Below, piece after piece: positions 2,334-64,000 of a DNA stretch of 64,000 nt (the first letter of the stretch is position 1; every line of letters starts with the position of its first letter). The position numbers and the translations under genes are program-made. The DNA comes from an uncultured Planctomycetota bacterium (GTDB lineage Bacteria; Planctomycetota; Phycisphaerae; Sedimentisphaerales; UBA12454), in assembly GCA_903847315.1 (NCBI GenBank), contig CAINDG010000008.1, forward strand, positions 1-64,000. Direction: 5' to 3'. The notes beneath the pieces are model-generated. The model was not told where the DNA came from and did not search any database. It was given only the letters and a program-made list of their open reading frames with translations.

Positions 2334-3980
2334 ATGAAGCAAACAAAATACCTGTTAATTTTATTATTGCCGTTGGGTTTTGTTGCCGGTTGTATCCAGG
2401 GTCAGGCGAACATATCCCTGAATCCTGATGGCTCCGGCAAAATAGCGTTTGAGGGACTCTACGACCCGTGCTGTTGTTCGGAAAACACCGAAAATGTTTC
2501 GCAAACCTTTCAAAATTTTGTCAAACAGGTAAAGAATACATTGGTTCAATGCCGGGGGGTTGAGGCGTGGAAAGACGTAAACTGGCGAATCCTCGACAAT
2601 GGAAAAATTTACTTTAAGGCCCAGGCATATTTCAAATCCATCGACGATGTTGCTATTTATCTTGGGAATATAAGGGGCAGTCTTAAGGCTTCTTACCAGA
2701 AGAATGAAAAACAGCAGTGCCTTGTTGAATTAAAGTCACTCATAACAGAGCCGAATTTGATATACAGTCCGGGGGGAAATGCGCCGGAACATTATAAACT
2801 TTTTCGCGAGACCGCCGAGCAAATGCTAAAAACGCTTCGGCTGGACATAATACTTAATCTGCCCTCGGAGATAGCGAGTGTTGAAGGGTTCAGCAAGATT
2901 GATTCGCGGACTGTTCAGCATCTTATCGATGGGAGTCAGATGGTATATCTGCTTGAAACCATTAAGAAGCAGGAACGGTACGAATTGGCTGAAAGATGGA
3001 ATTATAACCGTGCGGAATTTATAAATAATGAATTGCTGCCTATGTGGTACGGCAGCCAGAAACCATTGCGGGTTTATTTCGCAGACAGCAACGAGCGTCT
3101 TTTCGATTATGAAAAAGAAAAATCCGAGGCGCAAAAAGAATATCATTCTATTACAGAAAGGCTCGAATCGGCAGCGGGAATTGTCATAGCCGGGTCCGAA
3201 CCGAATAAAGTTGAGATTAGTCAGCCCAACATACCGCCGGACAGTACGGTTGAAATTGACACGGATATAAATGCACGGCTGCGCAGCGGGCTTGCGATTG
3301 AGGCAAAAGCCGATTACGAGCGGGCTGCCGAAATTTATTCGAGATTGATAGCGGATAATCGAACAGCTTCGAAATATCGTGCCCAGGCGTATTACAGGAA
3401 GGGGATGTGCCTTTTTGAAATGGGACAAACCGACAAAGCAATTGAGCAATTTAATTATGTTCTGAGCAATTTTTCATCGCAGCAGGTCGCATCGCTGCGG
3501 TCTCTTAAAATGATACAGGATATTCGTTCCGGCACGGCTAAAAGAAAAACAGACAAAAAATCGTCTGATGCGCCGACGGTCGTCAGCACAAGTCCCGATA
3601 ATTTCATAAATGACGTTAATTCCAAACTTGACAAAATAGTGATTAAATTCAGTGAACCTATGGACGATTCGTGCTGGTTTTATTCTTCATTTGCGCCTGG
3701 GATATTGCCGCAGATAACAGCCGAGCCGTCTTTTGATTTGCCCAGACAGGAATGGACTCTGCCGGTCAGGCTCGAACCGGGTAAAATTTATGCGATTGCC
3801 TTTAATTGCGGCGATGCCGTAAAAGATAAGGAAAATTTTAAAGCGGGCTTTCGCAGCTTTTCGGGCAAAATGAGCAGACCGTTTATTCTTGTTTTCGCCA
3901 CGGCAGATGGTAATAATATGCCGACCGAAATCGGCGAAACTCTGATTTCGAAAAGTGAAGAAATAAATTCCAAGCCGTAA
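2334..3980 (+). CDS. Predicted lipoprotein with TPR segment and C-terminal Ig-like domain
   Basis: The 548-residue product starts with a lipoprotein signal: a charged start, a hydrophobic stretch and the lipobox FVAGC, with the lipidated Cys at about residue 20. Residues ~60-300 match no family I recognise. Residues ~320-385 contain a TPR-like helical pair (YERAAEIYSRLIADN, then AYYRKGMCLFEMGQTDKAIE). Residues ~405-530 look like a bacterial Ig-like domain of the SbsA/Big_5 kind, from PTVVSTSPDNFINDV and IVIKFSEPMDD. It is probably anchored in the outer or inner membrane facing the periplasm. Its role is unknown. It stands alone on the plus strand, divergent from the regulator operon. Confidence 0.8.
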   Translation: MKQTKYLLILLLPLGFVAGCIQGQANISLNPDGSGKIAFEGLYDPCCCSENTENVSQTFQNFVKQVKNTLVQCRGVEAWKDVNWRILDNGKIYFKAQAYFKSIDDVAIYLGNIRGSLKASYQKNEKQQCLVELKSLITEPNLIYSPGGNAPEHYKLFRETAEQMLKTLRLDIILNLPSEIASVEGFSKIDSRTVQHLIDGSQMVYLLETIKKQERYELAERWNYNRAEFINNELLPMWYGSQKPLRVYFADSNERLFDYEKEKSEAQKEYHSITERLESAAGIVIAGSEPNKVEISQPNIPPDSTVEIDTDINARLRSGLAIEAKADYERAAEIYSRLIADNRTASKYRAQAYYRKGMCLFEMGQTDKAIEQFNYVLSNFSSQQVASLRSLKMIQDIRSGTAKRKTDKKSSDAPTVVSTSPDNFINDVNSKLDKIVIKFSEPMDDSCWFYSSFAPGILPQITAEPSFDLPRQEWTLPVRLEPGKIYAIAFNCGDAVKDKENFKAGFRSFSGKMSRPFILVFATADGNNMPTEIGETLISKSEEINSKP

Positions 3981-4030
3981 TTCAGTTATCGGTTATCAGT
4001 TATCGGCAGAGGGGACGAGTTTTCGCGATT

Positions 4031-4059
4031 CATCGGGGAAATTGAGGACCGCCCCGATG
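4031..4059. terminator. Hairpin between convergent genes
   Basis: CATCGGGG (4031-4038) and CCCCGATG (4052-4059) form a perfect 8-bp inverted repeat between the 3' ends of the lipoprotein and HNH genes. No T-tract follows, so it may be a weak bidirectional terminator or a dispersed repeat. Confidence 0.35.
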
Positions 4060-4078
4060 AGATAGCCAAAGCGGCATC

Positions 4079-4669
4079 TCACGGGGTAAACTTTTTTTGC
4101 GAGTCGTTAGGAAAATTTAATACCGCAAAATCACGGTGGTATATCTTTGCGGCGTTATCGTAAGCCTTTGCAGCGTCAACTTCATTTTCAAATAAACCCA
4201 AATATATGCGTTTTCCCTTACAATAGATAATAGCCTGCCATTTGTTTATTTTTTTAATGAGACCGACGCCCCTGTATTTAGAAGTCTTGTCTTTAGTGTT
4301 TATTCTTTTATTACAGCAGTTTTGCCACTGTTCGGCAAAACGAAGATTAGCCTTTCTGTTGTCGAGACTTTCATGATTGCGATGGTCAACGAAACTACCT
4401 TTGGGGGCATTCATAATAAATCTGTGCATATACAAAATTTTTCCATCGTTAAACACCGCGGCATAGCCTTTGCCTTTGATTTCGTTAAGATGCCAATCAT
4501 ATTGAGACAAATTCTGAAAATCCTCAGGGTCAACGATGGCAAAGCGGTCTTTAGTTAATCTAATTCTGCGAAAAGAATAGCCGTAGCGTTTCTTTCGATA
4601 GCGAAGGAGGAAATAAAGAATGACGGATTCTATAACGGCCGGGATTTTAATTTGAAATCTTAAATACAT
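4079..4669 (-). CDS. HNH endonuclease with AP2 DNA-binding domain
   Basis: This 196-residue protein resembles mobile HNH-AP2 endonucleases. Residues ~40-130 hold an HNH_3-type nuclease core (MHRFIMNAPKGSFVDHRNH, then LDNRKANLR and NCCNKR). Residues ~132-190 hold an AP2/ERF-like DNA-binding domain, with SKYRGVGLIKKINKWQA and a YLGLFENEVDAAKAYDNAA helix. Such proteins behave as free-standing homing endonucleases. The start is taken at the ATG at 4669, four bases after AGGAGG; a GTG lies directly upstream. It borders an A+T-rich island and repeat debris, consistent with lateral arrival. A regulatory DNA-binding role cannot be excluded. Confidence 0.85.
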   Translation of the reverse strand: MYLRFQIKIPAVIESVILYFLLRYRKKRYGYSFRRIRLTKDRFAIVDPEDFQNLSQYDWHLNEIKGKGYAAVFNDGKILYMHRFIMNAPKGSFVDHRNHESLDNRKANLRFAEQWQNCCNKRINTKDKTSKYRGVGLIKKINKWQAIIYCKGKRIYLGLFENEVDAAKAYDNAAKIYHRDFAVLNFPNDSQKKFTP

Positions 4670-5248
4670 CACTCCTCCTGTAAAAGATAAACTCGAAATT
4701 CGAAATCCGAATTACCAAAACTTCAATGTTCAAAACCGTTTTAGATATTTGAGAATTAGAATTTAGAATCCTTCAGCTTCGTTCAGGACAGGTTTGTTTC
4801 GGATTTCGATATTCGGATTTCGTATTTTCTATTATTTAGGATATAAAACTGCTGAAATTGGTAATTTCAAAAAGAAATCAACTGGGAATTGGAAAAATTA
4901 TTAGCCTATTATGCGTAGAAATAAGGACTTACGAGAAATATTCACTTTTCACCTAACTATGACTATATTATACCATATTTTTAATAAAAATCAATAGAAA
5001 ACGGCATTTTCAAAAAAAAATGTCGCCCTGAGCTTGCCTGTGGTGAGCTCTGTCGAACCATCGAAGGGTCTATTTCTTTCTCACTTTTCACATCGGAGCC
5101 GCAGCGCAGATCCCGACGCATCGGGACTTTTCTTACTTTTCTTACTTTTATCCCCTTTGATTTCACGATTTTTGAGGATATAATTTCACTGTTTCTTTGA
5201 GGGGCAACAAAGATTATAGATTTATTGAAAAATTTGGAAGGAAGAAAA
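4670..5248. repeat. Gene-free A+T-rich spacer with repeat debris
   Basis: I see no gene here. CGAAATCCGAAT (4701-4712) is inverted at 4811-4822 (ATTCGGATTTCG), and near-copies of TCGGATTTCG lie between. At 5026-5068 is a CCCTGAG...CGAAGGG repeat of the same type as the one at 17526-17578. At 5111-5126, TCCCGA-CGCA-TCGGGA forms a short hairpin. These look like dispersed, non-coding repeats beside the HNH and HEPN genes. Confidence 0.6.
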
Positions 5249-5578
5249 ATGGAAATCCCAAATATTAAAGAAATTTTTGAATTAATAAAAAAGGGAGCAA
5301 CTATAGAAGCGCAGCAAAAAATAATTGAGTTAAAAGAAACAATAATTTCATTACAAGAGGAAAATCTAAAATTAAAAGGAGAAAATCTATCACTGCAACA
5401 GCAAATTGAATTATCAGAAAAAGGGGAACGTTGCCCTAAATGCAGGAAAGGGATTTGGAATTTAATAAAAAGTGAACCACATTCTACCTTTGGAAGGCTC
5501 GGGGTTTTAGAAAGAACGTATAAATGCTCAGAATGTGGTTTTACTGAAGAACATATTTTTGACCCACACAAAGAATAA
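5249..5578 (+). CDS. Small coiled-coil zinc-ribbon protein, partner of the HEPN gene
   Basis: The product has 109 residues. The first ~60 form a strongly predicted coiled coil rich in Glu, Lys, Leu and Gln (for example ELKETIISLQEENLKLKGEN). The C-terminal half is a zinc ribbon with two CxxC knuckles, CPKC and CSEC. I chose the ATG at 5249 because GGAAGGAAG lies just upstream; an in-frame TTG at 5225 is less likely. The stop is 35 bp before the HEPN gene on the same strand, so the two are probably co-expressed. It could be an antitoxin, adaptor or sensor for the HEPN protein. The function is not known. Confidence 0.75.
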   Translation: MEIPNIKEIFELIKKGATIEAQQKIIELKETIISLQEENLKLKGENLSLQQQIELSEKGERCPKCRKGIWNLIKSEPHSTFGRLGVLERTYKCSECGFTEEHIFDPHKE

Positions 5579-5613
5579 ATAACTGTTTAATAAATAGGAA
5601 TAATTTTGGAATA

Positions 5614-6888
5614 ATGGCACAATGGCATAGAAAATATAATCCTTCTATATTGGTTCAAGAACTGGAGAAATCCCGATCTATCAATAGCGAAGGCAAGGCG
5701 CAATTTGACGGCTTTGGAATGATGACAATATCGCCAAAATTACAAGAGATGATATGCATGAATTCGGAAATAACTCATGAGGACAAACATGGGATTGTTA
5801 TGCAATCTATTTTTAATGCTGGCCGCGACACTTTAACGGCCGAAACTATATTAACAGAAATAAATCAACTTGAGGGAGCCTATTTGTCCTCTTGCGAACA
5901 TAATTATATTGTTGTAACTTCCTTGTCCATCGACAAAAATCACCATAAACTTCCTAATGTTAAAATTGATGACAACAAAATTAATTTTAGTGCATCTTTA
6001 CCAAAAAGTTTTGCAAAAGCAATCGACAATATGCAATCTATTATTTATTTTACTAATAAGAAGAAATTGCCTTCAGACTATCTACAAGCAAGAGTATCCG
6101 TACGTGCTAAAAGTGTATACTTGGCGGCTGAAAAAGCTTTAGATTCACTAAATTTCTTTAGGGGAATTCTTAATTTTGCGATAAATTTTGGCGGACAAAC
6201 TTTTTCTTTTGGAGGAGGTTATAATAAACCTATCAATAGAATTCTTTTGGGGCCAATCCACACATTGCACAAACCAAATGGAGAAATAGCCGTTAAAGAT
6301 GTTCATTGGTTCGAACAAGGATATCAGGAGCCGTTGCAACCTTATTATGATATCAGTATTGTTAATTCTATTGCTAAATTCGATAGAATAATGAAAGCTG
6401 TTAACAAAATTTACAAAAATATTAAAAAAAGTAAAATAAAAGAAGAACTCCAAAATGCAATATTACTCTACAATAATGCTCTCGATAGTTATGATTACGA
6501 GGTATCATATATCAAGTTATGGGCTACTTTAGAATTATTGACGGCAACAGGGCAAGATGATAACCATAAGGTTACTGTCAGACGAGCTGCTTTTATATTT
6601 AATAACCCAGAGCAGGAAAAGATACATCTGGAATTGCTTAGGAATTTCCGTAACAACCTAGTACACCGGGGATATATGAATGCGAAGTTAGAAATATTCG
6701 TATATGACCTCAAATTGTATGTCGAAAGGTTATTACGCTTTCTTATATTTAACCAATCTCGATTTGAGAATTTTAGCGATGTAGGATATTTTCTGGATAG
6801 AAATATCGAATCCGATACATTAGACAGAAAATCAAAATTAATCAATTTTGCTAAAAAATTAAATAAATCACGGAACCCAAATAAATAA
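5614..6888 (+). CDS. HEPN-domain protein (Apea-like), candidate RNase of a defence or toxin module
   Basis: The protein has 424 residues. Residues ~1-270 are unassigned. The C-terminal part carries the HEPN signature RNxxxH as FRNNLVHRG near residue 350, inside a helical bundle that continues to YVERLLRFLIFN. HEPN proteins with this motif are often metal-independent RNases in toxin-antitoxin, abortive-infection and CRISPR-related systems, and the Apea-like subgroup is defence-linked. The gene is visibly more A+T-rich than its neighbours and sits beside a mobile-type endonuclease, suggesting horizontal transfer. The upstream coiled-coil zinc-ribbon gene is its likely partner. The motif is clear; the enzymatic role is inferred. 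Confidence 0.75.
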   Translation: MAQWHRKYNPSILVQELEKSRSINSEGKAQFDGFGMMTISPKLQEMICMNSEITHEDKHGIVMQSIFNAGRDTLTAETILTEINQLEGAYLSSCEHNYIVVTSLSIDKNHHKLPNVKIDDNKINFSASLPKSFAKAIDNMQSIIYFTNKKKLPSDYLQARVSVRAKSVYLAAEKALDSLNFFRGILNFAINFGGQTFSFGGGYNKPINRILLGPIHTLHKPNGEIAVKDVHWFEQGYQEPLQPYYDISIVNSIAKFDRIMKAVNKIYKNIKKSKIKEELQNAILLYNNALDSYDYEVSYIKLWATLELLTATGQDDNHKVTVRRAAFIFNNPEQEKIHLELLRNFRNNLVHRGYMNAKLEIFVYDLKLYVERLLRFLIFNQSRFENFSDVGYFLDRNIESDTLDRKSKLINFAKKLNKSRNPNK

Positions 6889-63054: not shown

Positions 63055-63126
63055 GCCGATGTAGCTCAACGGTAGAGCGCGGCTTTCGTAAAGCCGAGGT
63101 TTTGGGTTCGAATCCCACCATCGGCT
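63055..63126 (+). tRNA. tRNA-Thr(CGT)
   Basis: The acceptor GCCGATG pairs with CATCGGC. The D arm is GCTC/GAGC, and the anticodon arm CGGCT-TTCGTAA-AGCCG gives anticodon CGT. The T arm is TTGGG-TTCGAAT-CCCAC. CCA is not encoded. Confidence 0.96.
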
Positions 63127-63140
63127 TTTGGCAACGACAG

Positions 63141-63184
63141 TTGTCATTTCGAGCGAAGCCCCTTATGGGCGAAGTCGAGAAATC
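63141..63184. repeat. Dispersed repeat, second copy
   Basis: TTGTCATTTCGAGCGAAGCC and GCGAAGTCGAGAAATC bound the unit. It shares its ends with the reverse complement of 25426-25466 but has a different centre. It lies between tRNA-Thr and the next gene, and ends 7 nt before its ATG. Confidence 0.75.
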
Positions 63185-63191
63185 TTATTCT

Positions 63192-63455
63192 ATGAAAAAT
63201 ATAAATAAAACAAATCTGACCGACACACCTAAAGATATTCTCGAAATTCAATATGATTTGTATCGCAAAATGAGTCCGGCGAAAAAATTCAGGATTGTCT
63301 GTGACGCTTATCGTTTCGGGCAGTCTCTTGCAATGACTGGAATAAAAATGCGATATCCCACTGCCGACAAAAGAGAGGTTTGGCGTATATGGGCAAAACA
63401 GCATCTTGGAGAAGAATTATATAATAAAGTCTATGGGGGCAAATCTAATGAGTGA
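63192..63455 (+). CDS. Small partner protein of a nucleotidyltransferase
   Basis: The 87-residue helical protein shows a conserved pattern I have met next to nucleotidyltransferase genes: YRKMSPAKKFRIVCDAYRFG, AMTGIKMRYPTADKREVWRI and GEELYNKVYG. There is no signal peptide or catalytic motif. It overlaps the next gene by 8 bp (ATGAGTGA), so the two are coupled. An antitoxin or substrate-binding partner is possible. The ribosome site is weak; the preceding dispersed repeat may supply part of it. The frame is open upstream from 62916, but that includes the tRNA, so the ATG at 63192 is chosen. Confidence 0.8.
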   Translation: MKNINKTNLTDTPKDILEIQYDLYRKMSPAKKFRIVCDAYRFGQSLAMTGIKMRYPTADKREVWRIWAKQHLGEELYNKVYGGKSNE

Positions 63456-64000
63456 TGTTCAGCAGAGTGAAGTAATTAAAATATTAACAGACATCCTCGA
63501 TGAATTGAAAATAGGATATGCCATCGGCGGTTCAATCGCGAGTTCGATATATGGGACGCCGCGTTTTACACAGGATGCGGATATTTCGGTACAACCTTTT
63601 TCGTCCGTTGCAGAACGGTTTTATGAAATGCTGAAAGACAGTTTCTATATCAGTAAAGAGGCTATGTATCAGGCAATTAGTTCCCATAGCAGTTTTAATG
63701 TAATTCATTTTGAGACTGCTTTTAAAATAGATATATTTACGGTAAACACCGATTTTGAAAGACTGCTTCTAACACGCAGCAAAAAAAACAAAATTGAGGA
63801 ATCTATCAATAAGGCTTTCTCGCTCGTATCGCCTGAAGATATTATATTATTAAAACTCAAATGGTATAAACAGTCAGATTGTGTTTCAGAACGCCAGTGG
63901 TCGGACGTGCAAGGCGTTCTGGCAGTGCAGAAAGAACGACTCGATTTTGATTATTTAAAGAATTGGGCGAAAAAGCTGGAATTAAACGAACTCCTCCAAA
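63448..64000 (+). CDS. Nucleotidyltransferase-fold protein, open at right edge
   Basis: At least 184 codons are visible. The N-terminal nucleotidyltransferase core has AIGGSIASSIYGTPRFTQDA then DISVQ, with the Gly-Gly-Ser loop and an Asp pair, and a later third acidic position in HFETAFKIDIFTV. The rest, with SPEDIILLKLKWYKQSDCVS and WSDVQGVLAVQKERLDFDYL, is conserved in this type. Members resemble AbiEii- or DUF6036-like nucleotidyltransferases. The overlap with the 87-residue gene suggests a two-component module. The C-terminus is outside the window. Confidence 0.85.
   Translation, partial: MSDVQQSEVIKILTDILDELKIGYAIGGSIASSIYGTPRFTQDADISVQPFSSVAERFYEMLKDSFYISKEAMYQAISSHSSFNVIHFETAFKIDIFTVNTDFERLLLTRSKKNKIEESINKAFSLVSPEDIILLKLKWYKQSDCVSERQWSDVQGVLAVQKERLDFDYLKNWAKKLELNELLQ

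Follow-up and report, generated by a model that had tools for sequence, protein, structure and literature searches.

The analyzed window comprises the first 64,000 nucleotides of a contig of 87,870 bp (G000:C8:1-64000) and ends within a pair of overlapping genes. The first gene encodes a small protein of 87 residues, starts at the ATG at position 63192 and terminates at the TGA codon at positions 63453–63455. The second encodes a nucleotidyltransferase (NTase) whose ATG lies at position 63448, such that the two reading frames share 8 bp, exactly as described in the original prediction. The NTase gene is truncated by the end of the window, and the 3′ end missing from that description was recovered from the parent contig, where the complete gene spans positions 63448–64029 and encodes 193 residues. 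The original prediction overlooked a tRNA-Thr(CGU) gene that ends 65 nt upstream of the start of the small gene (Table 1). The spacer between them carries a REP-like repeat with 10 other matches across the genome (about eleven places in all); this repeat is missing from the spacers of the relatives and was inserted between the tRNA-Thr and the small gene only in this genome. Both reading frames presented dN/dS values of 0.11–0.16 relative to the homologous genes of two relatives (L028 and L038) and are therefore real genes, each under purifying selection. The same gene order and spacing of the pair were observed in about 100 genomes.

Table 1. Features at the end of the window (positions of the contig, which are also those of the window).
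Feature	Positions	Strand	Evidence
tRNA-Thr, anticodon CGT (CGU)	63055..63126	+	ARAGORN; Rfam RF00005, 69.2 bits
REP-like interspersed repeat, one copy, in the spacer between the tRNA and the putative antitoxin gene	63141..63185	+	GTCATTTCGAGCGAAGC...GAAGTCGAGAAATCT; also given as GTCATTTCGAGCG...CGAGAAATCT
Small protein, 87 aa, MenA1-like (Rv0078B-like) putative antitoxin	63192..63455	+	Translation; MenA1 alignment; PF18993 in relatives; PDB profile match; structural model
Nucleotidyltransferase, 193 aa, MenT1-like putative toxin	63448..64000 (to 64029 of the contig, past the window)	+	Translation; MenT1 profile match; Foldseek; invariant residues

We searched for relatives of the pair using one alignment of the NTase (A1) and one of the small protein (A2). 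An initial search found the small gene in 14 of 199 Planctomycetota genomes, with an NTase gene adjoining it nearly always. Scanning 84,980 genomes with A1 yielded at least 567 relatives, and among the best 80 of these, which were examined as loci of named genomes, the small gene was directly upstream of the NTase gene or fused to it in 79; the sole unpaired locus (L101) begins 80 nt from a contig end. The two genes typically overlap by 1–22 nt or are separated by a gap of a few bases. Within the 199 Planctomycetota genomes, the small gene directly preceded 34 of the 43 closest NTases (E < 1e-40) and was found with a single one of the 39 NTases in the band from 1e-24 to 1e-14. Of the nine exceptions among the closest NTases, four were paired when a wider profile was used and one has the small gene after the NTase gene, raising the count to at least 39 of 43. 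The pair is a conserved operon with a near-universal association among close NTases. The profile search for co-occurrence proposed in the original prediction thus bore out the pairing, and NTases often lacking the partner, which that prediction had named as evidence against a module, were not observed among the close relatives. The swapped order, with the NTase gene first, was seen at loci L205 and L206. Small genes without an intact NTase gene occur at four loci (L121, L122, L125, and L127), and remnants of an NTase gene follow some of them in one frame or another.

Relatives of the pair were detected in more than 10 bacterial phyla, including the Acidobacteria and Planctomycetes in which the original prediction had placed similar pairs. 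The phyla are intermixed in the NTase tree, where four label changes are needed for Planctomycetota and eight for Chloroflexota, a distribution that suggests, rather than proves, horizontal transfer. At six loci, the small domain is fused N-terminally to the NTase in a single protein. These fusions are hosted by a Herpetosiphon plasmid, a Nostoc plasmid, Marithrix, a Nitrospirota genome, Argonema, and one planctomycete, and belong to Chloroflexota, Cyanobacteria, Gammaproteobacteria, Nitrospirota, and Planctomycetota. A search of plasmids with the small protein found none, and a search with the NTase found six cyanobacterial and Herpetosiphon plasmids; both copies examined were fused. We found no relative among IMG/VR viral sequences (A1 scan) or phage records (tblastn), and a viral or phage origin of the pair was rejected on these grounds. 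These empty searches are no argument against a role in defense.

Two further plasmid loci were observed. The Pseudanabaena plasmid ABRG53a (L218) carries at positions 2695–3549 a gene as long as the fused ones (855 bp, 284 aa), in which the C-terminal portion matches the NTase; this gene stands directly after a caspase-family gene, with CHAT-domain genes on both sides, which suggests a defense or cell-death setting. The Planktothrix agardhii plasmid p1 (L025) carries an NTase gene at positions 3950–4552 for which no small gene was detected. Its immediate upstream neighbor is an IS701-like element, which may have taken the place of the small gene.

We then considered the relatives of the NTase. 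Pfam assigned the protein to DUF2204, barely over the cut-off, and 24 of its 102 aligned relatives match DUF6036. These function-unassigned families are broader than the one described here, and the remoter NTases of the same genomes mostly occur without the small partner. A profile built from the 102 NTases retrieved MenT1 (8an4) from the PDB with an E-value of 5e-7, and the direct alignment of the window NTase with MenT1 gave z = 7.2, a score that none of 2000 shuffles reached. The AlphaFold model (pLDDT 96.8) led to the same protein: the best five Foldseek matches were all MenT1 chains (E = 1.4e-8, TM = 0.66) and covered 187–191 columns, which corresponds to the full length, at a low identity of 17–18% over the structure. 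Further matches included LnuA and ANT(2''), and MenT3 ranked low (E = 0.015). The NTase presents the motif GGS...R39-F-T41-x-D43-x-D45 followed by K136 and D153; R39, T41, K136, and D153 are invariant across the 102 NTases, and D43 and D45 are conserved in at least 90% of them. In the direct alignment, R39-F40-T41-x-D43-x-D45 falls on R37-F38-T39-x-D41-x-D43 of MenT1. Judging from their invariance and from the distance between them (17 residues, compared with 15 in MenT1), K136 and D153 are likely the counterparts of K137 and D152. The toxicity of MenT1 requires D41, K137, and D152, and its T39 is a phosphoacceptor that is phosphorylated when MenA1 is present (PMC10435456, PMC11375011).

The comparison with AbiE made in the original prediction can be weighed on the same data. 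AbiEii and MenT toxins both belong to the DUF1814 superfamily (PMC11375011), and 23 of the 102 NTases weakly match the AbiEii family PF08843. However, the window NTase scores 12.1 bits against this family, below the cut-off of 22.5; PADLOC matched neither window protein; and an AbiEi partner is absent from all loci examined, the partner here being a helical protein of 87 residues without a winged helix or AbiEi domain. More generally, AbiEi–AbiEii, MenA3–MenT3, and MenA4–MenT4 resemble the pair in having NTase toxins of this wider superfamily but differ in their antitoxins, which are larger or unrelated (winged-helix or kinase-like domains), and their toxins came low in the fold search. An AbiE-type (type IV) toxin–antitoxin system is therefore very improbable.

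The small protein is predicted to form three helices (residues 14–25, 29–54, and 60–81; model pLDDT 88.5). Pfam matched nothing in the window protein, PF18993 included, and a search of its own genome with PF18993 gave no match. This family, named "Rv0078B-related antitoxin", was matched by 19 of 103 related small proteins, with a best E-value of 4.5e-7. Rv0078B is another name for MenA1, which acts as antitoxin to MenT1 (PMC10435456). Direct alignment of the small protein with MenA1 gave z = 7.3, again with none of 2000 shuffles scoring as high, and a MenA1 chain (8an5_C) was the second match (E = 0.053) of the small-protein profile among 177,635 PDB sequences. Foldseek was uninformative, as no PDB structure, MenA1 included, matched the small-protein model. 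The core that can be aligned to MenA1 begins around residue 29, at the second predicted helix, and a tryptophan aligns with W47 of MenA1. Each of these links is weak by itself; their strength lies in the fact that all of them name the partner of the NTase's nearest likeness. Two independent weak matches, one per gene, point to both partners of one known pair.

Reversed roles, as in HEPN–MNT systems, would make the small protein the toxin and the NTase an enzyme that modifies and silences it. An NTase encoded beside a small helical protein fits such a two-gene arrangement, and orphan small genes do occur. However, none of the 103 small proteins matched a HEPN family domain, the NTase is of the MenT1 type and resembles this toxin rather than the MNT antitoxins, and orphan small genes often stand beside NTase remnants, contrary to the expectation for a toxic small protein. 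We regard this scenario as highly doubtful.

We consider instead, with a probability of roughly three in four, that the pair is a divergent toxin–antitoxin system of the MenAT1 type. As in MenA1–MenT1 of M. tuberculosis (Rv0078B–Rv0078A), a small helical antitoxin gene would precede an NTase toxin gene, the toxins are of similar size (193 residues here, 196 in MenT1), MenT1 is the best structural match with the R-F-T-x-D-x-D motif in both, and the antitoxin core can be aligned. In contrast to MenA1, the putative antitoxin is 87 rather than 68 residues long; its N-terminal helix (14–25) and the nearly invariant D11, T12, and R25 of the family have no MenA1 counterpart. The fusions and the tRNA-Thr location are further differences. 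The part of the original prediction that saw a toxin–antitoxin pair is supported, in that the data favor a conserved pair of this type, and the AbiE-type comparison is not, as the partner is not AbiEi. The pair was also said to have no assigned function; because the most closely related proteins of solved structure are MenT1 and MenA1, a function can now be proposed by homology.

MenT1 adds nucleotides to the 3′ ends of tRNAs and arrests growth, and MenA1 neutralizes it by forming a heterotrimer, T39 being phosphorylated (PMC10435456, PMC11375011). In E. coli, MenT1 has no effect (PMC10435456). By analogy, the free NTase would add nucleotides (cytidines in the case of MenT1) to the 3′-CCA end of tRNAs, and this extension would block aminoacylation and translation. 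The small protein would bind close to the active-site loop of the NTase and keep the enzyme silent, possibly through induced phosphorylation of the invariant Thr41, which corresponds to T39 of MenT1. With the translational overlap, the antitoxin would be made first and both proteins would be produced together. Toxicity, tRNA target, neutralization, and Thr41 phosphorylation are all inferred from MenAT1. Such a pair may serve in phage defense, in the stabilization of a genomic site, or in stress response.

The tRNA-Thr(CGU) site was compared across the family (hereafter, "toxin" and "antitoxin" denote the putative roles). Nine genomes carry the cassette or a remnant of it behind the same tRNA-Thr. 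The pair is intact in six genomes that belong to the same genus and family (G000, G207, G199, G200, G202, and G210). In three others, the antitoxin frame is open and the toxin is broken or missing: in G204 it is cut short around codon 111, not far from the end of a contig; in G205 it is absent; and in G206 it contains frameshifts. Four genomes (G201, G203, G208, and G209) have no pair at the site. In the congener G201, the tRNA is immediately followed by the sugar-kinase gene that stands after the pair in G207, which shows either a clean insertion of the pair (about 955 bp, ~0.95 kb) or its clean deletion from G201. Toxin decay was more frequent than antitoxin decay (9 against 1), which by our own estimate does not reach significance when gene length is taken into account (p about 0.13), and we rejected this asymmetry as proof of toxicity because it is statistically weak.

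Behind the toxin gene, the 3′ end of the tRNA is copied in G000 (36 of 44 bases, contig positions 64027–64070) and in G210 (17 of 24 bases); no copy was seen at the other occupied sites. A direct repeat was therefore rejected as a general mark of the site, and a second tRNA at positions 64027–64070 was rejected because ARAGORN calls none there. The site presents features of integrative elements that use tRNA genes, namely insertion at the tRNA 3′ end, a direct repeat (G000 and G210), and an empty site (G201). The ~0.95 kb insert consists of the two genes only and has no integrase of its own, nor space for one. The pair is an accessory cassette located after tRNA-Thr. G000 also carries a membrane ORF on the minus strand (contig positions 64116–64622; 4116–4622 of L009) with weak similarity to SLATT/8xMP, situated past the tRNA-end repeat and before the sugar-kinase gene; this ORF is missing in L028 and is possibly a second cassette at the same tRNA site.

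These data also bear on the possibility that the two proteins form a two-subunit NTase with a non-toxic task, such as the modification of RNA or of a metabolite, in which the small protein would be a substrate-binding or activating subunit. The fusions of the two domains would fit a permanent complex, LnuA and ANT(2'') are among the structural matches, and purifying selection is strong. However, the pair is patchy within a single genus, with a clean empty site and decay in three relatives, and the small protein appears homologous to a proven antitoxin. We consider this explanation unlikely and retain the MenAT1-type toxin–antitoxin system as the preferred one.

The ATG of the antitoxin gene lies 2–3 nt past the end of the tRNA in both G205 and G210. 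This spacer is too short for a promoter of its own, and the pair is therefore likely co-transcribed with tRNA-Thr in these genomes. A promoter scan gave no more matches than in shuffled sequences. We offer as a speculative and improbable extension that the pair is a toxin–antitoxin mini-island without integrase, for which the 3′ end of tRNA-Thr is both landing site and expression device: the tRNA promoter would drive the genes and 3′ processing would free a nearly leaderless message. If this were true, a toxin acting on tRNA ends would be wired to tRNA maturation.

When MenA1 was described, no more than 21 relatives could be detected, of which 15 were encoded beside a MenT gene (PMC10435456). 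Should the present family be MenAT1-like, this type of tRNA-modifying toxin would be far more common, with loci numbering in the hundreds across Chloroflexota, Planctomycetota, and many other phyla. The literature covered, a partial collection in which absence is weak evidence, yielded nothing on the family in Planctomycetota or Chloroflexota, on the fusions, or on the tRNA site; the MenAT studies found mostly concern Mycobacterium. The new elements here are the extended antitoxin, the natural fusions, and the tRNA-site cassette. The fusions constitute a single-chain route to study the hold of the antitoxin on the toxin. The tRNA-Thr sites, some occupied, others decayed or empty, form a natural series for the gain and loss of toxin–antitoxin pairs.

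Finally, two additional arrangements were observed among relatives. One Sedimentisphaerales genome contains the pair twice in tandem (L032, positions 4881–6579). In two more distant relatives (L034 and L035), the pair again follows a tRNA-Thr gene, here at a distance of several hundred bases, and the next gene appears by eye to be LarE-like.
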